64,000 nucleotides of DNA, taken from positions 1 through 64,000 of the forward strand of contig NZ_JAJCTH010000002.1 of the NCBI RefSeq assembly GCF_020594515.1. The letters run 5' to 3'. Every line of letters starts with the position of its first letter. Position 1 is the stretch's first letter. The stretch comes from Rhodoferax sp. U2-2l (lineage in GTDB: Bacteria > Pseudomonadota > Gammaproteobacteria > Burkholderiales > Burkholderiaceae_C). This document shows positions 29,055 to 47,042 of this stretch, piece after piece. The translations under genes and the position numbers were made by a program. The notes beneath the pieces are model-generated. The model worked only from the letters and a program-made list of their open reading frames with translations. It was not told where the DNA came from and made no database searches.

Positions 29055-29189
29055 TCAAAAAATTAAATTATTTGGAATATTTAAACACAGATCATCATGC
29101 ATGAAATATTTGATTATTTGTCATAAAAAATAGATCACTAATTTCACTCGTGAACTTCTACGATGCAGCCTCACTCAACGGAGCAGCTT
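29055..29189. promoter_or_regulatory. AT-rich divergent promoter region (DMT transporter / glmS)
   Basis: This 135-bp spacer is strikingly AT-rich compared with its surroundings, with runs such as AAAAAATTAAATTATTTGG. It must hold the glmS promoter and that of the transporter. Such composition suits Lrp-type binding, but I cannot assign exact boxes. Confidence 0.4.
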
Positions 29190-31055
29190 ATGTGTGGCAT
29201 TGTCGGCGCGGTATCGAATCAAAACATCGTCCCCATCCTGGTGCAAGGCCTGGCCCGGCTGGAGTACCGAGGTTACGACTCGTGCGGCGTGGCGGTCTAC
29301 GCCAACGGCCTGCAACGCGCCCGCAGCACGGCGCGTGTGTCTGAGCTGATGGACCAGATTACCACCACCCATTTGCAAGGCAGCACCGGCATCGCGCACA
29401 CCCGCTGGGCCACCCACGGCGCGCCAGCGGTGCACAACGCGCATCCGCATTTCAGTCACGGCCCCGGAACGGACGCCTACGACAAGCCGGGCCGCGTGGC
29501 GCTGGTGCACAACGGGATCATTGAAAACCACGACGACTTGCGCGCTGCCTTGCAGGCCAAGGGCTATGTGTTTCAGAGCCAGACCGACACCGAGGTCATC
29601 GCCCACCTGATCGACAGCCTGTACGACGGCGACCTGTTTGAAGCGGTCAAAGCCGCGCTGGGCTCGCTGCGTGGCGCCTACGCCATCGCCGTGTTTTGCA
29701 AGGACGAACCGCATCGCCTGATTGGTGCGCGCGCCGGTTCGCCGCTGATTCTGGGTGTCGGGGCCGACGGCGCGCACTATTTGGCCAGTGATGCGATGGC
29801 GCTGGCTGGCGTGACCGACCAGATCGTTTATCTGGAAGAGGGCGACGTGGCCGACATCCAGCTCGGCAAATACTGGCTGGTGGACAAGGCGTTCAAACCT
29901 TTGACCGCGACGCAGCGCCCCGTCAAAACCGTGCACGCCCACAGTGGCGCAGCCGAGCTGGGCCCGTACCGCCACTACATGCAAAAAGAAATTTTTGAGC
30001 AACCACGTGCCATTGCCGACACGCTGCAGGGCGTGGACAGCATCATGCCGGAGCTGTTTGACGGCGCCCAGGTGAGCGCTGCGCGCGTCTTCAAAGACAT
30101 CGACTCGGTGCTGATCCTGGCCTGCGGCACCAGCTACTACAGCGGCTGCACCGCCAAATACTGGCTGGAAAGCATCGCCAAAATCCCCACGCAAGTGGAA
30201 GTGGCCAGCGAATACCGCTACCGCGACTCGGTGCCCAACCCCCGCACGCTGGTCGTCACCATCACCCAAAGCGGCGAAACCGCCGACACGCTGGCCGCGC
30301 TGCGCCACGCCCAAGGCCTGGGTATGACCCACACGCTGACCATCTGCAACGTGGCCACCAGCGCCATGGTGCGTGAGTGCGAGCTGGCCTACATCACCCG
30401 CGCCGGGGTGGAGATTGGTGTCGCTTCCACCAAGGCGTTCACCGCGCAGCTGGCCGGGTTGTTTTTGCTCACCTTGGCGCTGGCGCAGTCTCGCGGTCTG
30501 CTGAGTGATGCCGAGGAAGCGCGCCACATCAAGGCCATGCGCCATTTGCCAGCCGCACTGCAAAGTGTGCTGGCACTGGAGCCGCAGGTGATCGCCTGGT
30601 CGCAAGACTTTGCCGCCAAGGAAAACGCGCTGTTTCTGGGCCGGGGCTTGCACTACCCGATTGCGCTGGAAGGCGCCCTCAAACTCAAGGAAATCAGCTA
30701 CATCCACGCCGAAGCCTACCCAGCCGGTGAACTCAAACACGGCCCGCTGGCGCTGGTGACCAGCGCCATGCCGGTGGTCACCGTGGCGCCGAACGACGCG
30801 CTGCTGGAAAAGCTCAAGAGCAACATGCACGAAGTGCGTGCGCGCGGCGGCGTGTTGTATGTGCTGGCTGACGCTGACTCCCATATCGAAAGCGGCGACG
30901 GCCTGCATGTGATCCGTATGCCCGAAAACTACGGTGAGTTGTCACCCATGCTGCACGTGGTGCCGCTGCAATTGCTGGCGTACCACACGGCCTGCGCACG
31001 CGGCACCGATGTGGACAAACCCCGCAACCTGGCCAAATCGGTCACGGTGGAGTAG
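29190..31055 (+). CDS. glmS: Glutamine-fructose-6-phosphate aminotransferase (isomerizing)
   Basis: The start is [15 protein letters not shown], with GGAG upstream; Cys2 is the catalytic nucleophile of the N-terminal glutaminase, so the upstream in-frame start is rejected. The 621-residue enzyme has two SIS domains ([18 protein letters not shown]) and ends with the classic [13 protein letters not shown]. It makes glucosamine-6-phosphate. The conserved 3' end of this gene is the recognition site of Tn7-type TnsD proteins, and a large island begins 23 bp past the TAG. Confidence 0.98.
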
Positions 31056-31073
31056 CCGTCTGCTGCCGGCGTC

Positions 31074-31078
31074 AACAC
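31074..31078. repeat. 5-bp direct duplication (left), AACAC
   Basis: AACAC lies directly outside the left inverted end of the island and recurs directly outside the right end at 45862-45866. A 5-bp duplication is the Tn7 hallmark, though some IS21 elements also make one. Confidence 0.65.
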
Positions 31079-31192
31079 TATTCCGCGCAATTAAAGTCGT
31101 AAACAGGTCATTAAAGTCGTAAACACGGGCCTAGCATTCATGCGGGTTTGCGGGATGTTGGATTTTGGAGACGTTGTTTAAAGTCGTAAACA
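31079..31192. repeat. Left island end with three end-repeats
   Basis: Copies of the ATTAAAGTCGTAAACA motif end at 31105, 31126 and 31192 (the last with TTTAAAG). The block AGCATTCATGCGGGTTTGCGG between the second and third is also found, inverted, in the right end. The first two copies are spaced 21 bp, as for adjacent transposase binding sites. Confidence 0.8.
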
Positions 31193-31471
31193 CACCGACT
31201 TTTTGACTTGCTCAGCAGGTGGCGGCGGTGCCTGATCAGGGCCACAGCTGCCGCGCCATCACCGCAGTCTGATGGACCGCCGCCTCAAACCGGAAACTGC
31301 TGGATCGCAGCGCGCCATACAACCTGAATGGCAGCTCTCGTAAGCTGCGCACTGATGGTGACGACCCTTAAGAGACAGTCGTGACTCGGTTGGCTATGCG
31401 ACTTGCTGAACTCTGCCGCCGCTCACGCGACTTGACGAAAGTGCCTGAGTCCTGGGATTTGGTGACTACGT
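31193..31471. other. Non-coding stretch inside left island end
   Basis: About 280 bp without a credible gene. It contains scattered short direct and inverted motifs (for example GGCAGCTCTCGTAAGCTGC) but nothing I can assign. Confidence 0.5.
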
Positions 31472-32302
31472 CTACCCTAAATGATCGGCGTGAAACCTGA
31501 AGTGCTCGCCGATAAAGCTCGCGATGAAATAGTAGCTATGGTCGAAGCCTGGGCGGAAGTTGAGTTGTAATGAATATCCGGCAGCTTGACAGGCCTCCCG
31601 AAGAAGGTGTGGTTTCAATTGAGATTCGAGAAATTCGTCTGCCTCACCCTGGTCAACGAGCAAGGGCAGTTCCTGTGGCCGTGACTTCACCAACTCGACC
31701 GCATCATATTGTTTCCACACCTCACGGTCGTCTCCCAGATACATCGAAAATGCTTTCTCGCCCCAAGGTACCTGGCTGGGTGCCACGATTGGCGCAAACG
31801 CAGATACGCATCGGTAGCGCCCAGGATTGCGCAGTGCGATGGTCAATGCGCCGTGCCCACCCATCGAGTGGCCACTCATCGAACGCGCACCGCTGGCCGG
31901 GAAATATGTTTCGATCAGCTCAGGCAGTTCATCGACGATGTAGTCATACATCCGATAGTGCTTTTCCCACGGTTGCCGCGTCGCATTAAGATAAAACCCT
32001 GCACCTTGACCAAGGTCGTAGGCCTTATCGTCGGCTACATCCGGGCCGCGCGGACTTGTGTCTGGCGTGACAACGATGATGCTGTGGGCGTCGGCGTAGC
32101 GCTGAGCCCCTGCTTTCGTTATGAAATTCTGCTCGGAACAGGTCAGGCCCGAAAGCCAGTAGAGCACTGGACATTTTTGGCCGCGTATAGTGGCACTGGG
32201 CAGATAAATGCCAAATCTCATTTCACAGCCAACGGTGCAAGAGGTGTGCTTCCACACCTCCTGAAATCCACCGTAGCTGGCGTGTCGCTCAATGCGCTCC
32301 AT
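31472..32302 (-). CDS. fghA: S-formylglutathione hydrolase
   Basis: The 276-residue serine esterase starts MERIERHASYGGFQEVWKHTS. The nucleophile Ser is in RSMSGHSMGGHGAL, with the family's LSGLTCSEQNF oxyanion segment and a late FDHSYYFI histidine. It hydrolyses S-formylglutathione to formate and glutathione, the second step of glutathione-dependent formaldehyde oxidation. It lies 25 bp downstream of the dehydrogenase gene on the same strand. Base composition of this operon looks lower in GC than the core genes, consistent with acquisition. Confidence 0.96.
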   Translation of the reverse strand: MERIERHASYGGFQEVWKHTSCTVGCEMRFGIYLPSATIRGQKCPVLYWLSGLTCSEQNFITKAGAQRYADAHSIIVVTPDTSPRGPDVADDKAYDLGQGAGFYLNATRQPWEKHYRMYDYIVDELPELIETYFPASGARSMSGHSMGGHGALTIALRNPGRYRCVSAFAPIVAPSQVPWGEKAFSMYLGDDREVWKQYDAVELVKSRPQELPLLVDQGEADEFLESQLKPHLLREACQAAGYSLQLNFRPGFDHSYYFIASFIGEHFRFHADHLG

Positions 32303-32327
32303 GCCGGTACGTCTCCGTCAAAAAGGT

Positions 32328-33748
<1,421 letters not shown>

Positions 33749-34436
33749 GCTTTAAGCCTTCACATACCGTGAGGTGGGATGTTAAGCCATGCTGTATGAC
33801 AGTATCAATAGCGTTATAAGGGTAAGTTATTCCTTTTAGCAGCTTGCGGCAGATTACGACCCCATTGGAGTCATAGCGGCTGTCCAAATTGATACCCGAA
33901 AGCCGACATTCACGCGTATACAGTTTTTTGCCGCCAATGTCCGCTACCGAGGTTGCCCATCTTCAAAGTGGTCGTCTCGTGACGACCAGGAGCCGCTATT
34001 GGGGAGTGGTGCTCGAAAGCAGCCGTTCGACGAACCGAATTCTCCATACTGGTCACTCGCGGTGAAATTTCCCCTGGTGGTCGTGGATTGCTCTTGTGCA
34101 GCGATTGAAGTCATGGGTGTTTTGGCCGTGGCGGGCTTGTCAAGACCCAATGCGGCAATAGCTATTTGCGACAATACGGTTCTAAAGGCGACAGTCGAAC
34201 CACAGTTTTTCTGCCAGTTTTATCGCAGTGATTTCGCAAGCCCTTGCACTGGCCGGAAACAGGCGCAATACGTTCAGGCCCACACGGATGTGCCGCAGTA
34301 ACCTGTCAAATTGCTGAATTCAGAAATCGGAACTGGCCGGTGTTTCTCGCCCATTGCAACGTTACTCGACGCGCCGCGAACCTTTGGTAAAAACGTATGG
34401 CTTTTTGGTGGCACACAGCCAAACGAACATATGTTT
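33749..34436. other. 688-bp spacer: frm promoter region and unexplained sequence
   Basis: The part next to frmR (33770-33830) must hold the frm promoter; it contains CATACCGTGAGGTGGGATG, loosely like CsoR-family operators with their G/C tract. A hairpin with an 8-bp stem (TGGTCGTC...GACGACCA, 33969-33988) lies further on, without a T-tract. Short open frames here have compositions unlike proteins, and I assign no gene. Confidence 0.45.
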
Positions 34437-35846
34437 TCAAGCTGCAGGCAGCATCAGCACAGCGCGCAAGCCACCCAAATGTGAATCCATCAGCGTAACT
34501 TTGCCACCATACAGGCGCGCCAAGTCATCCACAATGGCCAGCCCGAGCCCCGAACCGGGAACCTGCTCATCCGCGCGCACGCCACGCTGGCGCACGGCCT
34601 CGCGCTGGTCGGGGGGCAAGCCCGGACCATCGTCATCCACCGTGATGATGACATTTCTGGCCTGGCTTTGGGCGCTCAGGGTGACCTGATGCGTGGCCCA
34701 TTTGCAGGCGTTGTCCAGCACATTGCCCAGCATTTCCTGCAAATCCTGCGTCTCCCCCCGAAAAGCCAGCGTCTCGGGAATGGGCTGCAACGTCAACGCC
34801 AGGTTGCGCTCGGCGTGGATGCGCCGCATCACCCGCACCAAGCCATCCACCACAGGCAGTACAGCCGTTTTGGCACCGGGCATGCGGCTGGTAGCAGCGG
34901 CCTGGGCGCGGGTCAGGTGATAGTTGACTTGTTGGCGTGCAATTGCCACCTGCTCGGTCACCAGGTGCGCCAGTTCGGATGCCGGGCGCGGTGCATCCTT
35001 GTTGGCCTGGGCGGCGTTGGCCAGCACGCTCAAGGGGGTTTTCAGCGCATGCGCCAAATTGCCTGCATGGGTGCGGGCCCGCTCCACCACCTCGGCGTTT
35101 TGCACCAGCACGTTGTTGAAATCGTCAATCAGCGGCATGACTTCCAGCGGAAAGTCACCTTCAAGCAGCTGGGTTTCAGCGCTGCGCACCCGGCCCAGCG
35201 CATGGCGCAAGGCACGCAACGGTGCCAGCCCCACCAGCACCTGCACCACAGCGGCCACCACCAGTCCGCCAGCCAGCGCCGCCAGCGCCAGCCACATCGT
35301 GCCGCTGAACTGCGCCACAGGTTCCAGCATGAAACGCTCATCGGCTGCCGCCATCAGCCGAAAACTCGTCGCTGGCTCGCCCTGCTGGCGCTCGACCTGC
35401 ACGCTGCGCACCACGGCACTCAACCACTGCCCCTGCGGCCCGGCGATGCGTACGACATGAATCTTGCCGTCGGCTGCGGTCGGTGCAGGCAACACCAGCA
35501 CATGGTCCCAAAGCGAGCGGGACCTCAGGGGGTTGGCGTCAACCTTGCCCGAGGCCAGGGTCGGACCAACCCGGTCAATCTGCCAGTAGTAGCCCGAAAA
35601 CGGTCGCGTCAGGCGCGGGTCGCTCAGTGCGATCTGCAGCTTTGGCTGATTCTGTTCATCCAGCGTGAACTGGGCTGTCAACTGGTCTAGATGGCTGGTC
35701 AGCTCGGCCTGAAACTGGGCTTGCACATGCTGGTGAAACAAACCACTCAGGCCCCAACCCGCCACCAGAACGGAGGCCACGATCCAGAACAAGGTGCCCA
35801 CCAGCAGGCGCATGCGCAGCGAACTGCGCAGCTTCAGCAGGCTCAT
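34437..35846 (-). CDS. Sensor histidine kinase (PhoQ/QseC-like)
   Basis: The 469-residue inner-membrane kinase has a first helix at about 13-33, a periplasmic region of about 150 residues, and a second helix near 180-203 (LALAALAGGLVVAAVVQVLVG). The phosphoacceptor histidine is in NLAHALKTPLSVLANAAQ, and ATPase boxes are NVLDNACKWA, VDDDGPGLP and GSGLGLAIVDDLARLYGG. It overlaps its response regulator gene by four bases. With the PepSY gene upstream it forms a three-gene regulatory unit facing the SHP operon. The signal is unknown; redox, metal or oxygen/NO state would fit the target. Confidence 0.93.
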   Translation of the reverse strand: MSLLKLRSSLRMRLLVGTLFWIVASVLVAGWGLSGLFHQHVQAQFQAELTSHLDQLTAQFTLDEQNQPKLQIALSDPRLTRPFSGYYWQIDRVGPTLASGKVDANPLRSRSLWDHVLVLPAPTAADGKIHVVRIAGPQGQWLSAVVRSVQVERQQGEPATSFRLMAAADERFMLEPVAQFSGTMWLALAALAGGLVVAAVVQVLVGLAPLRALRHALGRVRSAETQLLEGDFPLEVMPLIDDFNNVLVQNAEVVERARTHAGNLAHALKTPLSVLANAAQANKDAPRPASELAHLVTEQVAIARQQVNYHLTRAQAAATSRMPGAKTAVLPVVDGLVRVMRRIHAERNLALTLQPIPETLAFRGETQDLQEMLGNVLDNACKWATHQVTLSAQSQARNVIITVDDDGPGLPPDQREAVRQRGVRADEQVPGSGLGLAIVDDLARLYGGKVTLMDSHLGGLRAVLMLPAA

Positions 35847-36505
35847 GCGGGGACAGCCAGCCGGTAACCCAGGCCGCGCACGGTTTCAATCAGACCCGCG
35901 GGCAATTTCTTGCGCAATCGGCCAATGAACACCTCGACCGTATTGGAGTCGCGGTCAAAGTCCTGGGCATAAATGTGCTCCACCAGCGCGCTGCGCGACA
36001 CCACCTGGTCACGGTGATGCATCAGGTACACCAGCACCCGGTATTCGTGGCTGGTCAGGGTGAGTGCCTGGCCCGCAACCGTGACCCGGCTGTTGCGGGT
36101 GTCCAGGCTCAGCGGGCCACACACCAGCTCGGCGCTGGCTTGCCCTACCGACCGCCTGATCAGTGCCCGCAGCCGGGCCAGCAACTCCTCCATGTGAAAC
36201 GGTTTGGCCAGGTAATCATCGGCACCGGCGTCGATGCCCGCCACCTTTTCGTGCCAGCCATCGCGCGCTGTCAGGATGAGCACCGGCATGTTGCGATGCG
36301 ATGCGCGCCATTTGCGCAGCACCGACAGACCATCCATCCGGGGCAAACCCAGGTCAAGAATCACCGCGTCATAGGGCTCGGTGTCGCCCAGGTGGTGGGC
36401 ATCCACCCCGTTGTCGGCCAGGTCGACCACATAACCAGCTGCACCCACGCCATCAGCGAGCTGGAGGAGCAAGGTGGGTTCGTCTTCAACGATCAGGATG
36501 CGCAT
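35843..36505 (-). CDS. OmpR-family response regulator
   Basis: The start is MRILIVEDEPTLLLQLADGV; the longer upstream frame overlaps PepSY and is rejected. The receiver has the phosphoacceptor in VILDLGLPRMDG and Lys in YLAKPFHMEE. The C-terminal winged helix ends FIGRLRKKLPAGLIETVRGLGYRL. It lies 22 bp after the PepSY gene and overlaps the kinase. Likely binding sites are the TGAACGC repeats at 36963-37000. Confidence 0.94.
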   Translation of the reverse strand: MRILIVEDEPTLLLQLADGVGAAGYVVDLADNGVDAHHLGDTEPYDAVILDLGLPRMDGLSVLRKWRASHRNMPVLILTARDGWHEKVAGIDAGADDYLAKPFHMEELLARLRALIRRSVGQASAELVCGPLSLDTRNSRVTVAGQALTLTSHEYRVLVYLMHHRDQVVSRSALVEHIYAQDFDRDSNTVEVFIGRLRKKLPAGLIETVRGLGYRLAVPA

Positions 36506-36527
36506 GCGCGTTTCTCTTTGCAAAAAG

Positions 36528-36908
36528 TCATTTGGGCTGCGGCGCATTGTCAGGGGCTTGGGCATCTTGGCCTTTGCCTTTGCGACTGATCAGGGCGCCA
36601 CTGCGCGCGTCCACCTTGAGCTTGACCAGCCTGCCATCACTACGCAGGAGCTTGATCTTGTACATCCAGCGCGCCACGCCGTGGTCAGTTTCGCGGTCCA
36701 GCTCCACGTCCAGAATCTGGCCCGGCACCTCGCGCTCCAGCCGCTGCAGAACGGTGCCCAGCGGCAGCACTTCACCGGCTTGAAGGGCTTGGCGGGCCCG
36801 GTCGTGGTCATTGTCCGCCAGAGACAACCCGCTGGCGCCCCACAGGGCCAGTGCACCCAGCAGCGCCCAGCGCGTGCGCCAGAAAGATGGTTTGGTTGGG
36901 TTCAGCAT
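36528..36908 (-). CDS. Periplasmic PepSY-domain protein
   Basis: The 126-residue protein has a signal peptide (hydrophobic about 13-31, ending SLA) and a PepSY domain (LQRLEREVPGQILDVELDRE, then YKIKLLRSDGRLVKLKVDARSGALIS). PepSY proteins next to two-component genes can act as periplasmic modulators of the kinase. It is the first gene of the regulatory operon and is divergent from shp. A second PepSY gene lies within the opposite operon. Confidence 0.9.
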   Translation of the reverse strand: MLNPTKPSFWRTRWALLGALALWGASGLSLADNDHDRARQALQAGEVLPLGTVLQRLEREVPGQILDVELDRETDHGVARWMYKIKLLRSDGRLVKLKVDARSGALISRKGKGQDAQAPDNAPQPK

Positions 36909-36962
36909 GGTCAGGTGATGTGTCTGTGCAGGGGTAAAGGTCTTCTTTATAGCCTGACCAAC

Positions 36963-37000
36963 ATGAACGCGGGATGAACGCCAGGTTCACCTTGCGTTCA
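36963..37000. promoter_or_regulatory. Response-regulator binding site candidate: TGAACGC repeats
   Basis: ATGAACGC occurs at 36963-36970 and again at 36974-36981, exactly 11 bp apart, and GCGTTCA (the inverse) at 36994-37000. Eleven-bp direct repeats are the usual layout for OmpR-family dimers. The site lies in the 143-bp gap between divergent PepSY-RR-kinase and shp-dhc operons, so it may control both. Confidence 0.55.
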
Positions 37001-37051
37001 GTTGAGCGTGCGCATAGTCGAGCCCATACACCACTTCACCAGGAGCTCACC

Positions 37052-37474
37052 ATGAACCGTTACCTGACCGCCCCGCTGCTCACCGCAGCTCTGGCAATGA
37101 CCTTCTCGACCGCCAGCCTGGCTGGCCCGCGCGAAGATCTGCTGGCCCACTACGCCAGTGCCGCCCGGGCCGCCGACCCGGCTTTCAAAGCCTTTTCAGC
37201 CGAACGCGGCAAAACCCTGCACACCCAGACCTTCACTGGCGGCAAGCCCGCCACCCCTAGCTGCACCAGTTGCCACGGCACCAACCCACGCGCCGCAGGC
37301 AAAAACGCCACCGGCAAGGTGATTGATGCGGTGGCCGTGTCAGCCACCCCCACACGCTACACCGACTCCGCCAAGGTCGAGAAATGGTTCAAACGCAACT
37401 GCACCGAAGTGCTGGGTCGCGAATGCAGTGCCACCGAAAAGGGCGACTGGCTGAGCTTCGTCCTGAGTCAATAA
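37052..37474 (+). CDS. shp: SHP-type monoheme cytochrome c (DUF1924)
   Basis: The 140-residue periplasmic protein has a signal peptide (about 1-24), one heme site CTSCHG, and the SHP-type ending KWFKRNCTEVLGRECSATEKGDWLSFVL. SHP (sphaeroides heme protein) is an unusual high-spin cytochrome c that uses an asparagine ligand and binds oxygen or NO when reduced; the Asn in KRNC is the likely ligand. AGGAG precedes the ATG. It heads an operon with a diheme cytochrome, a PepSY protein and a flavocytochrome. Confidence 0.9.
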   Translation: MNRYLTAPLLTAALAMTFSTASLAGPREDLLAHYASAARAADPAFKAFSAERGKTLHTQTFTGGKPATPSCTSCHGTNPRAAGKNATGKVIDAVAVSATPTRYTDSAKVEKWFKRNCTEVLGRECSATEKGDWLSFVLSQ

Positions 37475-37505
37475 CGCCAAACGCTACACAACATTGGAGT
37501 CCACC

Positions 37506-37997
37506 ATGACTATCCCGTTTCGTGCGATCACCCTGGGTTTGTTGGCACTAGGTTTCTCTGCTTTGGTGCTCAGTCGTGCCCAGGCGGGCAGTGGCCACTA
37601 CTTCGCTCCAGTGAGCAACCCGGTGGTCCAGGAAGAGTGCGGCAGCTGCCATATGCCTTTTGCTCCATCGATGCTGCCTGCCAGTTCCTGGAAGCGACTG
37701 ATGGGCGACCTGAAGAACCACTTTGGCGACGATGCCAGCGTCGATGCAACGCTGGCCAAAGAGATTGGCGACTACCTTGCCGCCAACGCCGCAGACACCG
37801 GTGGCAAGCCCTACAGCGGCAAGCTGATGCGCGGTGTGTCGGCAACGGCCGCCCCCCTGCGCATCACTGAGTTGCCGAAATGGGTGAGTGCCCACCGCAA
37901 GGTCCCTGGTTGGGAATGGCAGCACAAGGATGTGCGCACCAAGGCCAATTGCGCCGCCTGCCATGCCAGCACCGAGCTTGGCTACTACGACGAGTGA
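37506..37997 (+). CDS. dhc: Diheme cytochrome c (DHC), SHP electron partner
   Basis: The 163-residue periplasmic protein has a signal peptide (about 1-27) and two heme sites, CGSCHMPF near residue 45 and CAACHAS near the C-terminus. Middle text (MGDLKNHFGDDASVDATLAKEIGDYL) matches the diheme cytochrome family known as the SHP donor. It lies 31 bp after shp; the in-frame TTG at 37494 is just upstream of the better ATG, with GGAG between. Confidence 0.92.
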   Translation: MTIPFRAITLGLLALGFSALVLSRAQAGSGHYFAPVSNPVVQEECGSCHMPFAPSMLPASSWKRLMGDLKNHFGDDASVDATLAKEIGDYLAANAADTGGKPYSGKLMRGVSATAAPLRITELPKWVSAHRKVPGWEWQHKDVRTKANCAACHASTELGYYDE

Positions 37998-38051
37998 TCT
38001 CCCATGGACCTGAACAGCTCTCCAAATCACAAACAACCCAAGGTATCCACC

Positions 38052-38492
38052 ATGAAGCTGACACCTTACTTGACCGCCCTCATTTTGGGTAGCGCACTCC
38101 TCTTGAGCAGCGCCTGGCTGTCGCCCGCCCTGGCCAAGGACAAGCCTACTGACCCATCCAGCCAACGCGGCTGGCTCTCCATCGGACAGGTCCACCAGCG
38201 CCTCGAAGCAGCGGGCTACCGCGATGTCGAAAAAATTGAACGCGAGCGCGGTGGCTATGAAGCCCGGGCCACCAACCGCCAGGGCGAGCGAACCAAACTT
38301 ACCGTGAATCCGCAAACGGGCGACATCACCGACCGTCGTGCGTCCGACCCGCGCGCCAACAACGCCCAAAATTCACCGCGACGAAATGCGCTGGAGTGCA
38401 ACAAGCGCCGCTGCCGCGACGACCTGCAGCCCAACCCGGTCAACCCACCCAGTTCGGCCAGCCCCCCGGCTGCGGCCAAGTCGTCTCGCTAA
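38052..38492 (+). CDS. Secreted PepSY-domain protein
   Basis: The 146-residue protein has a signal peptide (about 1-28, ending ALA). A PepSY-like region follows (IGQVHQRLEAAGYRDVEKIERERGGYEARATN, then KLTVNPQTGDIT), then a basic, Pro-rich tail with two cysteines (ECNKRRC). It lies between dhc and the flavocytochrome gene. A role in assembling or tuning the redox chain is possible but not shown. Confidence 0.85.
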   Translation: MKLTPYLTALILGSALLLSSAWLSPALAKDKPTDPSSQRGWLSIGQVHQRLEAAGYRDVEKIERERGGYEARATNRQGERTKLTVNPQTGDITDRRASDPRANNAQNSPRRNALECNKRRCRDDLQPNPVNPPSSASPPAAAKSSR

Positions 38493-38545
38493 CCTGTTGG
38501 CCGCCTGACCCCTGATCCATTTTGACCCTTGATGAACCAACTGCC

Positions 38546-39853
38546 ATGAAAACCCTATTGTTGAGTCTGTTGTCCCTTGTCACCCTGGCCTGGGGGTGGG
38601 ATGTGTTTGCCACAGCCACACCTGCTGGCGCCACCATCTGGTGGGTCGCCCGCCAAGAGGTGTTGAACCTGAGCGGACTGCTGTCGGTGGCCATGATGTC
38701 GCTGGTGATGTATCTGGCGACACGCCCGGCTTGGCTGGAGGCCCCCCTGGGCGGCATGGACCGCATCTACCGCACGCACAAATGGGCTGGTATTCTGGCC
38801 GTGGCGTTTGCAGCGGTGCACTGGCTGACAGAGTTGTCTGGCGACATTCTCAAATCCATGTTTGGCCGCACAGGCCGTGTGCCCAAGGAACAATTCACCG
38901 GTTTCCTGGACGTTCTGCGCGACTTGGGCAAAGACATGGGTGAATGGGCCATCTACGCCGTGCTGGCCATGCTGGTCATCACGCTGTGGAAGAAGTTTCC
39001 GTACCGCGCCTGGAGCCTCCTGCACCGCGTCATGCCGGTGCTGTACCTGATGCTGGCATTGCATGCCGTGATGCTGTCACCCACCAACTACTGGGCACAG
39101 CCGGTGGGCATGCTGATGGCGGGGCTGCTCCTCGCTGGCATCTATGGTGCCATCGAATCACTGCGCAACGGCATTGGCAAAACCCGTGAGACCGCTGGCG
39201 AAGTGGTGGGCCTCAGCCAGTTGGGCGGCGACATCACCACGGTGCATTGCCGACTCAGTTCCGCATGGCGCGGGCACCGGGCCGGCCAGTTCGCCTTTGT
39301 CACCTTTGACGACAAAGAAGGCGCGCACCCTTTCACCATTGCCAGTGCTGACCGCGGCGACCACACCCTCAGCTTTGAAATCAAGGGTCTGGGTGACTAC
39401 ACCCGGGGTCTGGGGCAACGCCTGCGCGTGGGGCAGAGTGTGCGTGTCGAGGGACCTTACGGTCGCTTTGACCTGAGTCGGCGCAACCCCCAGGCCAAAC
39501 AGATCTGGATCGCCGCTGGCATTGGGGTCACCCCGTTTCTGGCCTGGCTGGAGTCGCTGCAGACCGACCCCACGAACGCCCCGGCGGCCGAGCTGCACTA
39601 CTGCACCCGCGACGACGCCACCGATGCCTTTGTGCCGCGCCTGCAGGCGCTGTGCGCGGGGCTGCCGGGCATCAAGCTGCACATTCATGGCGCTAAACAG
39701 GGTGCCAACCTGAAAGCCCAAAACCTGGGTGTCTCGGGTCACACCGAAATCTGGTACTGCGGTCCAACGGGTCTGGCCAATTTGCTGCGCGACGGTCTCA
39801 AGTCATTGGGCTTGTTGCCCCGCTTTCACCAAGAAGCGTTCGAAATGCGATAG
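38546..39853 (+). CDS. Ferric-reductase-like flavocytochrome (membrane b-heme with FAD/NAD(P)H domain)
   Basis: The 435-residue protein has about six membrane helices in its first half with histidines suited to b-hemes (YRTHKWAG, AAVHWLTE, RVMPVLYLMLALHAVML). A ferredoxin-reductase-type domain follows, with FAD motif HPFTIASA and NAD(P) motif IAAGIGVTPFLAW. It should pass electrons from cytosolic NAD(P)H across the membrane, here presumably to DHC and SHP. In the described shp-dhc clusters the third partner is a small cytochrome b, so this is a variant with its own electron input. Confidence 0.9.
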   Translation: MKTLLLSLLSLVTLAWGWDVFATATPAGATIWWVARQEVLNLSGLLSVAMMSLVMYLATRPAWLEAPLGGMDRIYRTHKWAGILAVAFAAVHWLTELSGDILKSMFGRTGRVPKEQFTGFLDVLRDLGKDMGEWAIYAVLAMLVITLWKKFPYRAWSLLHRVMPVLYLMLALHAVMLSPTNYWAQPVGMLMAGLLLAGIYGAIESLRNGIGKTRETAGEVVGLSQLGGDITTVHCRLSSAWRGHRAGQFAFVTFDDKEGAHPFTIASADRGDHTLSFEIKGLGDYTRGLGQRLRVGQSVRVEGPYGRFDLSRRNPQAKQIWIAAGIGVTPFLAWLESLQTDPTNAPAAELHYCTRDDATDAFVPRLQALCAGLPGIKLHIHGAKQGANLKAQNLGVSGHTEIWYCGPTGLANLLRDGLKSLGLLPRFHQEAFEMR

Positions 39854-39895
39854 CGCTACCACCTGTGATTCTGTCTCGACAGGTCAGCGAGTAGG

Positions 39896-40035
39896 TTGGT
39901 CCAAACACTGGACGACTGGAGCGGTGGGCTGGTGTGTGACGACTTCGCAGAATACAAGGCCGGGTTTGGCACAGCCATCACCGAGGTGGGCTGCATGGCG
40001 CACGCCCGGCGCAAGTTCTTCGATCACCTCCAACA
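39896..40035 (+). pseudogene. IS66 transposase fragment
   Basis: About 45 codons read LVCDDFAEYKAGFGTAITEV then GCMAHARRKFFDHL, a core segment of IS66 TnpC. There is no rest of the gene on either side. It is fused at about 40035 to the end of the IS21-type istA remnant. Confidence 0.8.
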
Positions 40036-41400
40036 CATCCTGATGGGTCGGACGAAGGCGGTCATAACGCGCCGTATCCGCCTTGGGAGCGTTGGTCAGC
40101 GTCAGGGCTGTTTCTGCCCGCTCGGGTTGTTCTGGTGCGTTGAGCCGCGCCAACACGTTGCGTACATGCTCGATGCTGATGCTGCCGTTGGGAGTGGTGC
40201 CGTCAAGCACCAGATCCACAGCCACCAACAGCGCCTCAAGACCGGCTTGCGGCACCGCGGCCAGCACCTCAGCCATGAGCCGATCCCCACCCGCGTGGCG
40301 TAACAGCGATTGGCGCAGACGCAGCAGCGGTGCGGGCAGGTCCAGAAACGGCGCACCGTTTCGCAATGCGCCGGGCTTGCGTTGCACCAGGTCGATGTAG
40401 TGTTGCCAGTCGTAGGTGGTTTGAGCGGCACCGGCCATCCTGGCGTGGCTGGCCACAATGGTGTCGTTGGCGGCCACCTCTACGTGGTTGGGATACAGCC
40501 GGGTGCTGACCATGTGGCCGGCCCATTCGCAGGGCACGGAGTAGCGGTTGCGTGCCACGGCCACCAGGCAGGTGCTGCTCACGCGGGCGACCTTCTCCAC
40601 GTAAGCGTCAAAGGGCGCGGGCATGGACATCAGATGCGCTCTCTCCAATTCCAGCATCTCGGCCACGGTGAATTGTTTGTGGACCGGGTGTTGGGTGTCA
40701 GCCCAGATGGCACGCACACGCTCACCCAGCCAGGCGTTGAGTTCAATGAAGGAGCCAAAACGACGGGTACCAGCCTCGATCCAGATGCGACGACGGCTGT
40801 CTTGCACGTTCTTCTCGACCACGCCTTTCTCCCGGCCGGAGGCGACGTTGCAGAAGTCAGGATCGAACAGATAATGGCTGCACGTGGCCGCAAAGCGGGC
40901 GTTGACGATGCGGCCTTTGCCCTTTTTGACCTTATCCACGGCTGTCTTGGCAAAACCCCAAGTCCACATGTTGTCGTAGATGCCGCGTCGGGTGACACCT
41001 CCCAATGCCTGAAAGGACCGGGTGTGGGCGTCAAACAGCATTTCATGACCCTGGCTGGGGTAGGCCACCAGCCAGAAGGCGCGACTGGCGCACAGTTTCA
41101 AATGGGCCACTTGCACCTTGTAGAACACACCACCGACGATGAGTCCCTCATCGCTCCAGTCAAACTGGAAGGCTTCGCCGAGTTCGAAGTTCAGTGGTAC
41201 GAATGCCTTGGTCACCGATTGACCCGCGCTCTCACGCCAGGCCCGTGTGAAGTCGGTCACTGCGCTGTAGCCGCCTTGATAGCCTTGCCCCTGGATTTGC
41301 ACCAGCAATGCTTTGGCACTGCGTCGGGCGTGTTTGGGGCGCTGGGCATCGGCTTTGAGGGCCTGTGCCGCTGGAGCTGCTGGACCTGTCGCCCTCGATC
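40036..41400 (-). pseudogene. istA: IS21-family istA transposase remnant
   Basis: The frame reads from about 41400 leftward (ALKADAQRPKHARRSAKALL, then GQGYQGGYSAVTDFTRAWRE) through the catalytic core FQFDWSDEGLI, GVTRRGIYDNM and REKGVVEKNVQ. It ends near RYDRLRP. The first 50-60 residues (helix-turn-helix) are absent, and no istB follows; an IS66 scrap replaces it. No open start is evident, so it is a relic. Its ends are not next to any recognisable IS21 termini. Confidence 0.85.
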
Positions 41401-41422
41401 GGGCTCTGAAAGGCCGGATCAG

Positions 41423-42472
41423 ATGGCCATCGACACCCTGTGGTACACCCGCTGCCCAGCGCCAACGGCGGCCTCAATTGCCATCCGCCAGGGCTGGCTG
41501 GCGCAGGAATTCGCCGGCGACGGCATTGAAGTGCGCTCGCTGGCCTCGTCCGCAGACAAAGAAGTCCAGCTGTCGCATTACCGGCACAGTCAGCCCAACT
41601 CGTTTCGCTTTGGCGGCTATGTGCCGCCGCTGATCTCACGGGCGCGCGGTGCCGAGTTGAAAGTCATCGGCATCAGCTGGCACGACCGGGTGCACGGCTT
41701 CTTTGCCCTGCCCGGCTCGGGCATCCGCGAGCTGGCCGACCTCAAGGGCAAGCGGCTGGCGGTCCCGCGCCGGGTCCATGACGATGTGGACTGGTGGCGC
41801 GCCAGCGTGCTGGGCGGTATTCAGGCTTGGACATCATCAGGCGCCCTGTCGGCAGGTGATGTGGAACTCGTCGAGGTGCTGATCGAGCGCGAATACATCG
41901 CCGACGCACGCACCGGCAGCCAGGCCGGCCAGTCTCTGTGGGGCGCCGTCAGTCAGTTCGCGGTTCAGCGCGAAGAGGTGGCGGCCCTGTACCGCGGTGA
42001 AGTTGACGCCATTTACGCCGACGGCGCCCTGAGCGCGATCTTGCGGGCAACGACGGGCGCGGTCCTGGTGGCCGCGCTGGCTGGCAACGAGGATGACCAA
42101 TCCGGCTTTGGCACGCCCTGCGTGCTGACCGTATCAAACGGTCTGCTCAAGCAACGGCCCGATCTTGTAGCCCGCTGGGTCAGGCGGCTGCTCGACGCGA
42201 AAGCCTGGGCGCTGGACAACCTGGACGCGACCCACCGGCTGTTTGCGCAGGAAACCGGGCTACCCGAAGACCTGCTGCAACTTGGCTACTCTAGCCGCCT
42301 GGCTTCGCAAACAGACCTGTCGCTGGCACCCAACCGCATCGCCCTGCTGCGCAGCAAATACCAGCATCTGCTCGACATCGGAGCACTGGCAGAAACCTTT
42401 GATTTCGATGACTTTATCGACCCCCAGCCGCTTGCCCAAGCTCTTGCACTTAGGGAATGTCGGCCAAGTTAA
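41423..42472 (+). CDS. DszB-like sulfinate desulfinase homologue (SsuA/periplasmic-binding fold, no signal peptide)
   Basis: The 349-residue protein starts MAIDTLWYTRCPAPTAAS with AAAGG upstream. It resembles DszB, the 2'-hydroxybiphenyl-2-sulfinate desulfinase, which has the fold of sulfonate-binding proteins. The DszB triad appears kept: Cys11 (for Cys27), His52 (for His60) and Arg62 in FRFGGY (for Arg70), with the following Gly65. Like DszB and unlike transport binding proteins it has no signal peptide. The mid-region FGTPCVLTVSNGLLKQRPDLVARWV also fits. The substrate is unknown and no dszA or dszC is present. The gene begins 22 bp after an IS21 relic, so its promoter may be disturbed. Confidence 0.75.
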   Translation: MAIDTLWYTRCPAPTAASIAIRQGWLAQEFAGDGIEVRSLASSADKEVQLSHYRHSQPNSFRFGGYVPPLISRARGAELKVIGISWHDRVHGFFALPGSGIRELADLKGKRLAVPRRVHDDVDWWRASVLGGIQAWTSSGALSAGDVELVEVLIEREYIADARTGSQAGQSLWGAVSQFAVQREEVAALYRGEVDAIYADGALSAILRATTGAVLVAALAGNEDDQSGFGTPCVLTVSNGLLKQRPDLVARWVRRLLDAKAWALDNLDATHRLFAQETGLPEDLLQLGYSSRLASQTDLSLAPNRIALLRSKYQHLLDIGALAETFDFDDFIDPQPLAQALALRECRPS

Positions 42473-42593
42473 GTTTTGGTCAATTTCGGCGCTACCGATG
42501 CCTTACGTACATTTCAGGTCAAAGTGTTAGCCGGGTTTGAACCACCCCGAAACATAAGACTGAACGTCATCATCACACGAACATCTTGAAACC

Positions 42594-44798
42594 CTAGCTG
42601 GCCATAGCTGCCGCATTGGCCCGCGCCATGTGCAGTTTTTTGTAGCTGTCGATCAAGCGGTGGTGCCGCTCAAGCCCCTCTAACTTCATGCTGGTGGGCG
42701 CCAACCCGAAGAAGCGCACGCTGCCGTCCACGGCCCCCAACACCGCGTCCATGCGTGCATTGCCAAACATTCGTCGGAAATTGACAAGGTAGTCCTCCAG
42801 CTCCAGGTCGTCATCCAGTTGCACTTCCAGCACCACGTTCAAGGCTTGGTAAAACAGACCTCGCTCGCGCGAGTTGTCGTTGTATTGCAAGAAGGCGCCC
42901 ACCAACTCATGCGCCTCATCCCATTGCCGCAAGGCGAGTTGAATCAGCAGCTTGAGCTCAAGAACGGTCAACTGTCCCCAGGCGGTGTTCTCATCGAATT
43001 CGATACCGATCAGCGTGGCGATGTCGGAGTAGTCGTCCAGCTCACTGTTGTCCAGACGCTCCAGCAGCGCTTGCAGGCTCGTGTCGTCCAGCTGGTGCAG
43101 GTTCAGGATGTCTTCGCGGAACAAGAGCGCTTTGTTGGTGTTGTCCCAGATCAGATCTTCGACCGGATACACCTCCGAATAACCGGGCACCAGAATCCGG
43201 CAGGCGGTGGCGCCCAGCTGGTCGTACACCGCCGTGTAGACCTCTTTGCCCATGGCTTCCAGAATGCCGAACAAGGTCGCGGCTTCCTCGGCATTGGCGT
43301 TCTCGCCTTGGCCGGAAAAATCCCACGCGACAAACTCGACATCGGATTTGGCGCTGAAAAAGCGCCACGACACCACACCGCTGGAATCAATGAAGTGCTC
43401 CACAAAGTTGTTGGGTTCGGTCACCGCGTTGCTGGTGAAGGTGGGCTGCGGCAAATCGTTCAGGCCTTCAAAACTGCGGCCCTGCAGCAACTCAGTCAGG
43501 CTGCGTTCCAGCGCAACCTCCATACTCGGGTGCGCGCCGAACGAGGCAAACACACCGCCGGTGCGCGGGTTCATCAGGGTGACACACATCACCGGGTACA
43601 CCCCACCCAGCGAGGCGTCTTTCACCAGCACCGGAAAACCTTGCTCTTCCAACGCTTGGATACCCGCCAGGATGCCCGGGTATCTCGCCAGCACCTCGGG
43701 CGGTACATCAGGCAAGGTGATTTCGCCTTCCAGAATCTCGCGTTTGACCGCCCGCTCAAAAATTTCAGACAAGCATTGCACCTGCGCCTCGGCCAGCGTG
43801 TTGCCAGCACTCATGCCATTGCTGACGAACAGGTTTTCGATCAGGTTGGACGGGAAATACACCACCGCACCGTCCGACTGCCGCACAAAGGGCAGCGAAC
43901 AAATACCACGCTTGACATGGCCGGAGTTGGTGTCGATCAGGTGTGAGCCACGCAATTCACCGTCGGGGTTGTAGATCTGCAGGCAGTAGTCATCCAGGAT
44001 GCCGGCGGGCAACGCATCTTTGCGGCCCGGCTTGAACCAGCGCTCGTTCGGGTAGTGCACAAACGCGGCGTTGGCGATGTCTTCGCCCCAGTACGACCCC
44101 GCGTAAAAGTGGTTGTTGTTCAGGCGCTCGATGTATTCGCCCAACGCCGACGCCAACGCGCTTTCCTTGGTCGCACCCTTGCCATTGGTAAAACACATCG
44201 GCGAGTGTGCGTCGCGGATATGCAGCGACCACACATTGGGAACCAGATTGCGCCACGAAGCGATTTCAATCTTGATGCCCAGATTGGCCAACACGCCCGA
44301 CATGTTGGCGATGGTTTGCTCCAAGGGCAGGTCTTTGCCCGCGATGTAGGTGTGGGTGTCAGCGGAAGGCTTCAGGGTCAGCAAGGACTGCGCATCAGCG
44401 TCCAGGTTCTCGACCTCTTCAATCACAAATTCTGGCCCGGTTTGCACCACTTTTTTGACCGTGCAACGTTCGATGGAACGCAAAATGCCTTGGCGATCTT
44501 TGGCAGAAATATCCGCTGGCAACTCAACCTGGATCTTGAACGTCTGCTTGTAGCGGTTTTCCGGATCCACGATGTTGTTCTGCGACAAGCGGATGTTCTC
44601 GGTGGGGATATTGCGTGTGTCGCAGTACAACTTCACGAAGTAAGCTGCACACAGGGCCGATGAGGCCAGAAAGTAATCGAACGGGCCCGGCGCCGAGCCG
44701 TCACCCTTGTAACGAATCGGTTGATCGGCGATAACCGTGAAGTCATCGAATTTGGCCTCAAGACGAAGCTTGTCGAGAAAGTTGACCTTAATTTCCAT
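42594..44798 (-). CDS. OsmC-YcaO fusion protein
   Basis: The 734-residue protein has an N-terminal OsmC-like domain (about 1-135, MEIKVNFLDKLRLEAKFDDF, with a lone Cys in SSALCAAYF). A YcaO domain follows (about 150-540) with the ATP-binding motifs GKGATKESALASALGEYIERL and SEIFERAV, then a helical C-terminal region (about 560-734) like that of E. coli YcaO. YcaO proteins activate amide bonds with ATP; the E. coli type supports RimO-dependent methylthiolation of ribosomal protein S12. The OsmC module suggests thiol or peroxide chemistry. No RiPP precursor is evident nearby. Confidence 0.9.
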   Translation of the reverse strand: MEIKVNFLDKLRLEAKFDDFTVIADQPIRYKGDGSAPGPFDYFLASSALCAAYFVKLYCDTRNIPTENIRLSQNNIVDPENRYKQTFKIQVELPADISAKDRQGILRSIERCTVKKVVQTGPEFVIEEVENLDADAQSLLTLKPSADTHTYIAGKDLPLEQTIANMSGVLANLGIKIEIASWRNLVPNVWSLHIRDAHSPMCFTNGKGATKESALASALGEYIERLNNNHFYAGSYWGEDIANAAFVHYPNERWFKPGRKDALPAGILDDYCLQIYNPDGELRGSHLIDTNSGHVKRGICSLPFVRQSDGAVVYFPSNLIENLFVSNGMSAGNTLAEAQVQCLSEIFERAVKREILEGEITLPDVPPEVLARYPGILAGIQALEEQGFPVLVKDASLGGVYPVMCVTLMNPRTGGVFASFGAHPSMEVALERSLTELLQGRSFEGLNDLPQPTFTSNAVTEPNNFVEHFIDSSGVVSWRFFSAKSDVEFVAWDFSGQGENANAEEAATLFGILEAMGKEVYTAVYDQLGATACRILVPGYSEVYPVEDLIWDNTNKALLFREDILNLHQLDDTSLQALLERLDNSELDDYSDIATLIGIEFDENTAWGQLTVLELKLLIQLALRQWDEAHELVGAFLQYNDNSRERGLFYQALNVVLEVQLDDDLELEDYLVNFRRMFGNARMDAVLGAVDGSVRFFGLAPTSMKLEGLERHHRLIDSYKKLHMARANAAAMAS

Positions 44799-45766
44799 CG
44801 ATGAATTCCAAAATAGTGCTGATGATGATTGGCCTTGCGTTTCGGTGCTGTCGTCTTTGTCGTGAAGCCAAACAGGATTCGACGATCAACATTAGCGGTC
44901 GTGGCCAGGACGCTGTAAATAAATAGTTATCTACTCTAGGTTCCCACGATGAAAAGTCGTGGGCTGAGGCGTTCATTGTCGTGGGTCGACTGCGTTGCAT
45001 GTTACTGACGACTAAAAGTGATTTACCCAAACGCTTCGTCAAGGACAAATCACGCAGGCCACTCGTAAGTAATTTTAGGCAGCCCTCGCTGCACACCGGC
45101 CTCAGAATTCGCTGCCGGCATTGTCGACATTGGAATATCTGGCGGAGTCAGATGATGGGCCGTTTTTGAAGTCTACACAGTGATAGCTTTCTGCCTCCCG
45201 TAAGCTGCCACCGGTGAGCACCCGCTTCTGGTCGTTGGCGGGTGCAGCGACCCTCGAAATCGACGTCACATTGCTGACTGTCAGGCTACTGGGGTGACTG
45301 ACTGGTCTGGAGCGAGCATTTCGGGGAAACCTATGTCAGGAACCGCTGCCCTGCCGACCGCCAAACGGAAAATTTGATCCTGAAATTTGAATGACTGCTT
45401 TGGCTTGTCCGGCCGAACCCGCGAACGTCCGGTCCTCACTTTGCCCACTGACTCCTATGGGCACGAAGGTGCCCGCTGCGAATGACAGGTACTCGGTTTA
45501 CCGATGGCACTGGAATTTACTGATCCAAAGCAGTCACTTGCGAGTGGCAGCAACTGGCCCCACCCAGTCGTTCCCCCACCGCGCCAGAATGGGAAAGTTG
45601 GCGCTTATGTTGTATTTGCGCTGTCAATATCGTGACAGTATGAGTTTTGGGGGCCGGCTGAGGTGCGCGTCAGTTAGCCACCATGGGCAAATTTGATGAA
45701 CCAAGAGTCATCCTTGGCGAATTTAGCCATTGCATGAATGAATGGCTGAGGCCGGTGGTGTAGGGT
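44799..45766. other. Roughly 970-bp non-coding stretch before the right island end
   Basis: I see no credible gene. A perfect 12-bp inverted pair (TGACTGCTTTGG at 45392-45403, CCAAAGCAGTCA at 45525-45536) encloses 121 bp. Other stretches look like eroded sequence of unknown origin. The upstream part must hold the promoter of the OsmC-YcaO gene. Confidence 0.5.
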
Positions 45767-45861
45767 TGTTTACGACTTTAATTCGAGGTGTTGTCAATTT
45801 GAGACGCCGCAAACCCGCATGAATGCTCAGCCCCTGTTTACGACTTTAATTGCGCAGAATA
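45767..45861. repeat. Right island end with two end-repeats
   Basis: TGTTTACGACTTTAATT occurs at 45767-45783 and 45835-45851. The stretch 45833-45855 is the exact inverse of 31085-31107, and the block between the copies includes the inverse of the left-end AGCATTCATGCGGGTTTGCGG. Confidence 0.8.
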
Positions 45862-45866
45862 AACAC
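45862..45866. repeat. 5-bp direct duplication (right), AACAC
   Basis: Matches 31074-31078 outside the left end, in the same orientation. Confidence 0.65.
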
Positions 45867-45896
45867 CGGCCATACCGATCCGGTCGCGACAACGCC

Positions 45897-47042
45897 TCAC
45901 ACCCGCAGAAACGTCAGCAGCGCATCGTTGAAGGCCTGCGCGTGCGACACGTTCAAGCCGTGCGGCGCACCGGCCACCCGCACCAGCTGGCTGTGCGGCA
46001 CGGCGCGGTGGGTGCGCAGGCCCGAGCCTTCGATGGGCACAATGCTGTCGGCATCGCCATGAATCACCAGCGTGGGCACCGTCACCCGCTTCAGGTCTTC
46101 ACGGAAATCGGTGGTGGCAAACGCGTCCATGCATGCCAAGGCGGCATGTTGCGCTGACTGCTGGCACAGCGCGACGGCCTGACTGCGCTGCGACTCGGTG
46201 ACCTGCAACACACCGTTGGCCGAGAAGAAGTCTTTGGTGAATTGCTCAAAGAAGGCCTGGCGGTCCTGCTCCAGCGCGATCGTCATCTGCTGAGCGTTCT
46301 GCTGTGTGAGCGGCCCGTCGGGGTTGTCGGCGGTCTTCATCAGATATGGCGGCACGGCGGCGGCAAACACCACGCTGTGCAGGCGCGATTCGCCGTGGCG
46401 GGCCACGTAGCGCGCCACCTCGCCCCCGCCCATCGAGAAACCCACCAGCGTCACGTCCTGCAGGTCGCACTGCGCCAGCACGCGTTGCAGGTCGTCGGCC
46501 AGCGTGTCGTAGCTGTAGCTGGACTCCGGCTTGTCAGACCGCCCGAAGCCCCGGCGGTCATAGGTGACCACGCGGTAGCCCGCCGCTTGAAGCACCGACA
46601 CTTGCGGCGCCCACGCTTGGGCTGACAGCGGCCAGCCATGGATCAGCACCACCGGCCGGCCGCTGCCGCCGCTGTCGTCGATGTGCAGGCGCACGGATTC
46701 TGCGGTGCCCGGGTCGGCGGGCATCGCCTCGTCGGGATTCGCCGCGGCGCCCGCAGCCGCGCCGCCCATGGCACCGGCAACAGCACCCACCGAGGCACCC
46801 ACCAGCACGCCAACCGGGCCGGCCACCGCCATGCCAACGGCTGCCCCTGCAGCAGCGCCCGCCATCACGCCGCCGCCGATCAGCACCGAGTTGGCCTCGC
46901 GTTCGGCGTCCTCGGGGGCCAGCAGCGTCTGCGCGGCGGCATCCGGGTCTTGTGACGGAATTCCGTGGCCGGGGTTGGCCTGCTCGGCCATGTCGTCGTC
47001 AACCGGTTCGGTGTGGGACGGCGGGGTGATCAATGGGTTCAT
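45897..47042 (-). CDS. Alpha/beta hydrolase with N-terminal glycine-zipper segment
   Basis: The start is MNPLITPPSHTEP with GGAG upstream. The roughly 380-residue protein has an acidic head, then a long Ala/Gly-rich glycine-zipper (about 53-98, e.g. GGGVMAGAAAGAAVGMAVAG). An alpha/beta hydrolase domain of the chloroperoxidase type follows, with VLIHGWPLSAQAW, nucleophile GFSMGGGEVARYV, acid in HGDADSIVP and His in GAPHGLN. The zipper could insert in or associate with membranes; the fusion is unusual for this hydrolase group. Confidence 0.88.
   Translation of the reverse strand: MNPLITPPSHTEPVDDDMAEQANPGHGIPSQDPDAAAQTLLAPEDAEREANSVLIGGGVMAGAAAGAAVGMAVAGPVGVLVGASVGAVAGAMGGAAAGAAANPDEAMPADPGTAESVRLHIDDSGGSGRPVVLIHGWPLSAQAWAPQVSVLQAAGYRVVTYDRRGFGRSDKPESSYSYDTLADDLQRVLAQCDLQDVTLVGFSMGGGEVARYVARHGESRLHSVVFAAAVPPYLMKTADNPDGPLTQQNAQQMTIALEQDRQAFFEQFTKDFFSANGVLQVTESQRSQAVALCQQSAQHAALACMDAFATTDFREDLKRVTVPTLVIHGDADSIVPIEGSGLRTHRAVPHSQLVRVAGAPHGLNVSHAQAFNDALLTFLRV

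Follow-up and report, generated by a model that had tools for sequence, protein, structure and literature searches.

How did a 14.8-kb island with inverted ends on both sides come to lie behind glmS, when no transposition genes are visible in it? We addressed this question on a stretch of 64,000 nucleotides (the window), in which the island occupies positions 31079-45861, and on related genomes that were searched for the same ends. In the following, G, C and L numbers denote genomes, contigs and loci, respectively, G000 being the window's own genome.

Boundaries, repeats and cargo of the island

The preliminary description of this locus had claimed a 5-bp AACAC duplication around inverted ends, an insertion 23 bp past the glmS stop codon and a repeated motif at each end. 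We found the coordinates of the duplication to be exact (Table 1), and the distance from the TAG (31053-31055) to the first island tip is indeed 23 bp. The motif is present as exact copies of TTAAAGTCGTAAACA, three at the glmS-side end and two at the far end. These are the only five copies in the window at up to 3 mismatches (100 shuffles gave a mean of 0.24 and a maximum of 2), and no copies beyond them were observed across the 4.23-Mb genome at up to 1 mismatch. The repeats begin at offsets of 13, 33 and 100 from the tip on the glmS side and of 13 and 81 on the far side. The spacing of the inner two glmS-side repeats (67 bp) is nearly equal to that of the far side (68 bp), the glmS-side end having one additional repeat. 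Two inverted arm pairs were identified, 31079-31107/45833-45861 (29 nt, 97%) and 31110-31153/45807-45850 (44 nt, 93%). A block, GCATTCATGCGGGTTTGCGG, lies between the repeats at both ends, and 29 of the 51 left ends from the GTDB scan described below retain it when 3 substitutions are allowed. In all our end labels, 'left' is the glmS-proximal and 'right' the glmS-distal end; by the naming convention of Tn7, the glmS-proximal end is the right end. The TTAAAGTCGTAAACA repeats are putative TnsB sites, and the glmS 3' end is presumed to be the target of TnsD (attTn7).

Table 1. Coordinates of glmS, the island ends and the cargo in the window
Feature	Position	Strand	Support
glmS	29163..31055	+	630-aa ORF; copies with the same ends behind glmS in relatives
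Target-site duplication AACAC, 5 bp, glmS side	31074..31078		
Left end: tip TATTCCGCGC; exact TTAAAGTCGTAAACA copies (0 mismatches) at 31091-31105, 31111-31125 and 31178-31192	31079..31192	+	Conserved in relatives
Conserved non-repeat block TAGCATTCATGCGGGTTTGCGG	31132..31153	+	Far-end copy 45807-45829; within the 44-nt inverted arm
S-formylglutathione hydrolase (fghA)	31472..32302	-	NCBIfam TIGR02821 equivalog, E 1.2e-116
S-(hydroxymethyl)glutathione dehydrogenase (frmA type)	32328..33488	-	TIGR02818 equivalog, E 2.2e-218
Two-component system: histidine kinase and OmpR-type regulator	34437..36565	-	Pfam HATPase_c, Response_reg, Trans_reg_C
126-aa ORF, PepSY-like by eye	36528..36908	-	ORF only
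DUF1924 protein, dihaem cytochrome c (DHC), 162-aa ORF, ferric-reductase-like flavoprotein	36974..39853	+	Pfam DUF1924, DHC, Ferric_reduct
IS21 istA piece	39884..41473	-	Mu-transpos_C_2; 85% identical to annotated IS21 istA
NMT1-like substrate-binding ORF, Pfam match to stop	41630..42472	+	NMT1 E 5e-6, residues 441-486
OsmC-YcaO domain protein	42594..44798	-	TIGR03549 equivalog, 1468.6 bits
Right end: exact TTAAAGTCGTAAACA copies (0 mismatches) at 45767-45781 and 45835-45849; tip TATTCTGCGC read inward	45767..45861	-	
Target-site duplication AACAC, 5 bp, far side	45862..45866		

Among the cargo genes, the open frame of the NMT1-like protein comprises 720 aa, starts at 40310 and runs across the istA piece, which we read as a passenger in the island. 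A Pfam scan of 10 island ORFs revealed no tyrosine or serine integrase. The cytochrome/flavoprotein stretch matched 9 of the 60 genomes searched (own genome included; 67-76% identity elsewhere), and the fghA-frmA stretch matched 23 of the 60, again including its own, mostly through the dehydrogenase part. This patchy spread fits accessory genes, and it is plausible that a Tn7-like element delivered the formaldehyde and redox genes to the glmS locus.

We also considered a terminator that would form when the flanks are joined via one AACAC (-14.5 kcal/mol). This idea was dropped because such a value is common: it was equalled or beaten by 460 of 2000 right-flank shuffles, and 1027 of 2063 window stretches folded equally well or better.

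The same ends in related bacteria

We searched 100 genomes with a 35-base left-end pattern (up to 3 mismatches) and obtained matches in six, all of the same genus and including the window's own. In G004, G005, G032 and G045, the tip is located 22-25 bp past the glmS stop with differing flanks. In G010, which is a single contig, a right end lies ∼9 kb past glmS behind a Wadjet cluster. It is directly adjoined by the left end of another element, whose right end is ∼44 kb further. Wadjet genes were observed beside family ends in two congeners (L049, 1341-8923; L103, 1272-8836); the PADLOC scan covered jetA, jetC and jetD of both, and jetB of G032.

A wider scan of GTDB genomes with the pattern AAAGTCGTAAACA-N7-AAAGTCG yielded 51 stretches in 46 genomes of Rhodoferax, Acidovorax, Polaromonas, Simplicispira, Curvibacter, Ramlibacter and Rubrivivax, and in one Nitrosomonas MAG. 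Most of them belong to Comamonadaceae. The glmS 3' end is within 80 bp of the tip in 35 of the 51 stretches, with varied flanks, and the distance from tip to glmS stop is 21-25 bp in 33 of these 35 (5 and 28 bp in the remaining two). In all 35, the multi-site end faces glmS, the end that the search pattern itself required. The other 16 stretches include contig-edge matches, arrays next to another end (L138, L141, L142) and non-glmS sites, two of which are behind ammonium-transporter genes. In both of the latter (L129 of G119, 3385-3391; L149 of G005, reverse complement, 7656-7662), the tip is 7 bp past the transporter stop. The L129 gene matched TIGR00836 with an E-value of 3.4e-92, below the model cut-off, and that of L149 was named by its likeness to L129's. 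The 3' end of the ammonium-transporter gene is a possible second attachment site in these two genomes.

The interiors bounded by the shared ends are mostly unrelated. We compared the 44 loci having at least 300 nt past the left end (median 4.2 kb, maximum 7.9 kb; 7 of the 51 were left out) with each other and with the window. Megablast matches of at least 300 nt joined L116 with L151, and L143 with the window through the istA stretch; L128 also matched the G118 element described below, which is the same locus. A left end with a TGTTC tip was also observed on the conjugative plasmid 1 of Polaromonas sp. JS666 (L242, 20001-20116), where no right end was found in 70 kb on the inner side.

Eleven end pairs, including the window's, were compared for target-site duplications, and eight of them have an exact 5-bp duplication. 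All four pairs lying on one contig are exact (window, AACAC; G118, GCTGG; G108, CCGGC; G129, GGTAT), as are four of the seven cross-contig pairs (G032, GGTAT; G045, GATAT; G121, ACGCT; G104, GGGGC). The pairing in the cross-contig elements, including these four of the eight exact matches, was inferred, because the ends span two contigs. A second G129 element (left end on C4, right end on C1) has GGTAT only when its final T is also counted as part of the tip; taken strictly, the duplication is 4 bp. The cross-contig pairs of G107 and G120 showed no matching duplication. Four cases were excluded from the pair count: G133 (second end type unclear, flanks unlike), G145 C50 (no proper end), G004 C24 (left-type end whose flank fits by chance) and the inner left end of G010 (tip lost).

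Both tips of the window island are TATTC and not TGT/ACA, for which the preliminary description had offered either a new family or eroded ends. Tips were counted on the fetched loci other than the window's, each 85-base context once, with an expression that requires T at positions 1, 3 and 4 and would miss other tips; GGTTC (L132) was seen by other means. Among 46 two-copy ends, 35 have TA and 11 have TG, while all 17 one-copy ends have TA. In twelve of these 17, the next repeat is at 80-81, and we took them as right-type, a label that is ambiguous by sequence alone for L138, L141, L201, L226 and L231. The other one-copy ends are left-type (L069) or have no second repeat (L011, one end of L054, L202 and L204). 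At the 35 glmS-adjacent tips we counted 24 TATTN, 10 TGTTN and one GGTTC. TATTC is a family trait, the usual tip of these ends, and its recurrence across the family excludes erosion; the suggestion of a new family stands in so far as the family may be new to the literature. In a literature search with few subscription journals, we found nothing joining 'Tn7-like' with Rhodoferax, and the 13-base repeat core was seen solely in a fungal context.

An empty glmS site orthologous to that of the window was not found among the 60 genomes searched. In the same set, the right flank of the window matched 11 relatives besides its own genome. The four strong ones start where the hydrolase gene has its 3' end or slightly within it, and they are located on a contig other than that of glmS or, in G010, ∼190 kb from glmS. 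The matching duplications of other family members take the place of an empty-site comparison.

Tns genes in relatives and their absence from the island

In Acidovorax sp. 210-6 (G108), a 74.6-kb element with both ends and a CCGGC duplication encloses tnsA, tnsB, tnsC, tniQ and tnsD. Its tnsA, tnsB and tnsC are 51, 47 and 56% identical to those of G032, its tniQ is 40% identical to that of G004, and its tnsD matched at 47% identity. In G032, the genes inward from the right end on contig C5 are a regulator, a Wadjet jetABCD cluster (PADLOC), other genes and then tnsA, tnsB and tnsC, followed on the opposite strand by tniQ and tnsD; this tns set is 14-22 kb inside the right end, and the left end is on a separate contig, C8. 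The same set is present on G004 C9, 7-15 kb inside the glmS-side end; the far end of this element was not located. Between G032 and G004, identity is 77-82% for TnsA, TnsB and TnsC and only 45% for TnsD (L103 and L104 versus L045), so that the target selector either diverges faster than TnsABC or was exchanged.

Pfam identified the G032 TnsA (PF08722), TnsC (AAA_22) and TnsD (PF15978, E 4.7e-55) and the G004 TniQ (PF06527). The family TnsB had no match in Pfam or NCBIfam, and NCBIfam gave none for three other Tns proteins. TnsB of the family matched Tn7 TnsB (7pik) with an E-value of 6.7e-34, and TnsD matched Tn7 TnsD (8glu) with 1.9e-10.

In the island, on the other hand, the earlier reading that no tnsA-E genes are visible was confirmed: tblastn with 18 Tns/Tni proteins revealed no tns gene or fragment in 31001-46000 (best E 0.027). 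That reading had nevertheless proposed a Tn7-like element or one with borrowed machinery, and had suggested searching databases for the end motif together with tns genes. This proposal is upheld by the same ends and the same site in relatives and by the full tnsABC-tniQ-tnsD set between the G108 pair, and the search is answered by that pair and by two congeners carrying the set on the element side.

The family TnsB was not detected in the window's own genome at an E-value of 1e-20, and it was found in 3 of the 100 relatives searched. Among the 46 genomes holding the 51 stretches, 11 have a TnsB match, 10 of them clear (46-100% identity) and one a 30% partial match; the clear TnsB genes of G102 and G129 contain one internal stop each. 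The search reaches distant members of the family, since G104, G108, G126 and G144 were matched at 46-49%, and the absences are uncertain because of the draft genomes. Since the search of its genome gave no tnsB that fits the family, the island is probably immobile now.

The window's genome contains a different TnsABC set with TniQ/TnsD on contig C30 (L108) and a TniA-TniB-TniQ set on contig C27 (L109). We rejected both as helpers of the island: no copy of the island 15-mer at up to 3 mismatches was present on C30 as a whole or in the first 20 of the 21 kb of C27. The inner 13 bases of the repeat, at up to 2 mismatches, gave one match on C30.

A tns-less element of 6.4 kb was also observed in G118 (L223, 2027-8395), with a GCTGG duplication and one recognisable repeat at its far end. 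It adjoins a short ORF of truncated appearance, which we take to be DUF1810-like. No TnsB was found in the G118 genome.

Origin of the island and comparison with known elements

The aforementioned data strongly support insertion of the island by Tn7-type transposition. We consider it very probable that the island belongs to a Tn7-like family occurring mostly in Comamonadaceae and is a cargo-only member without tns genes, because the family ends enclose a tns set in relatives, whereas no tnsB of this family was found in the window element or its genome. On this basis, we infer the following route. TnsB would bind the TTAAAGTCGTAAACA repeats, three near glmS and two at the far end, and TnsA together with TnsB would cleave the DNA at the TATTC tips. 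TnsC would be recruited by a TnsD homologue bound to the glmS 3' end, and insertion ∼23 bp past the stop, the three-site end facing glmS, would create the 5-bp duplication.

The inverted repeats could in principle surround a glmS-adjacent gene cluster by chance. They are unique to the island ends in the window and the genome, and their recurrence in the genus and in the GTDB scan refutes this reading, the probability of which we regard as negligible. An IS21-family composite, in which the istA piece would be what is left of the island's transposase and the repeats at its ends would be those of IS21, is suggested by the presence of this piece with its Mu-transpos_C_2 domain inside the island. 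IS21 elements have repeated ends and make duplications of 4-8 bp. However, the related IS21 elements L243 (85%) and L244 (74%) bear the inverted repeat GTGCCG..TTGACCAGGG beside istA/istB, their loci have no island repeat at up to 3 mismatches, and island-type ends enclose tnsABC in G108. We therefore rejected an IS21 origin of the ends, which are unlike those of the two related elements, the island having an istA piece only; a composite of this kind is very improbable.

Within a Tn7-like origin, it has to be asked how the island came to be without tns genes. An autonomous transposon could have lost tnsABCD in place and never have moved without its own machinery. Autonomous relatives with the same ends exist, and the IS21 piece shows that the inside of the island was rearranged in the past. 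On the other hand, no tns remnant was detected in the island, and the tns-less state recurs in the G118 element, which has both ends in a genome where no TnsB was found. We give this history slightly less than an even chance. The other history, mobilisation in trans through the Tns proteins of a helper in a congener or on a plasmid, in the manner of a large non-autonomous transposon, also falls just short of even in our judgement. It agrees with the finding that only 10 of the 46 genomes bearing the ends have a clear tnsB (at least 46% identity), that G000, G010 and G045 have ends at or near glmS and no TnsB match, and that a left-end copy is on the conjugative Polaromonas plasmid. However, many of the genomes are draft or metagenome-assembled, so that a helper may have escaped assembly, the comparison of 44 interiors caught no island at two sites, and 70 kb on the inner side of the plasmid copy revealed no far end.

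Extending the cargo-only reading from this island to the family, we suggest only tentatively, and with some doubt, that most copies are cargo-only islands depending on rare helpers and sharing just their ends, mostly with TA tips, with glmS as the main site and the ammonium-transporter 3' end as the second. If this is true, censuses anchored on tnsB miss most of the population.

Tn7 is described as inserting next to glmS with a 5-bp duplication and repeated end sites (PMC2918618), and three and four TnsB sites are given for its ends (PMC8649781). The island resembles Tn7 in being inserted just past glmS with a 5-bp duplication and with repeated sites per end, and TnsA, TnsB and TnsD of the family match Tn7-type models or proteins. 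Unlike Tn7, the window island has no tns genes, its tips are TATTC and it has three plus two exact sites; the tns-bearing relatives carry two TniQ/TnsD proteins. Loci with dual TniQ-TnsD proteins are reported for Tn7-like elements (PMC10293859). The relatives are like these in having TniQ and a larger TnsD beside tnsABC, and the window island has neither.

As far as the main text of the census by Benler et al. (2021; PMC8649781) goes, inverted arrays of TnsB-like sites surround variable cargo, Wadjet included, features that the present family shares, and amtB is absent from it. According to that text, ends were looked for around tnsB, so a tns-less island would escape the census. In the part of PMC11406308 that deals with ends, tips are typically TGT/ACA, some Tn7-like elements deviate, and the reason is not understood; non-TGT ends are given there for some I-F3 CASTs and for the I-D McCAST. 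The tips of the present family likewise depart from TGT/ACA, although no CRISPR genes caught our eye in passing. Here TA and TG tips share one repeat, which makes the conservation of TGT ends, described in that part as not yet understood, testable in one system.

The significance of the family is that one set of ends parks unrelated gene sets, themselves lacking a transposase, behind glmS, namely genes for formaldehyde detoxification and cytochromes in the window and Wadjet defence in two congeners. Hunts for Tn7-type cargo that are based on tnsB overlook such islands.

Finally, a second element with end repeats of the AATAAAGTCCGTCGG type was observed in G032, nested in the left end of the first family (from L047 ∼1230 to L048 ∼7240). 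Its genes are in the order tnsA-B-C-D, with TnsA and TnsC named by position. Its TnsB match is short and weak, and its TnsD is 36% identical to that of the first family over nearly the full length.
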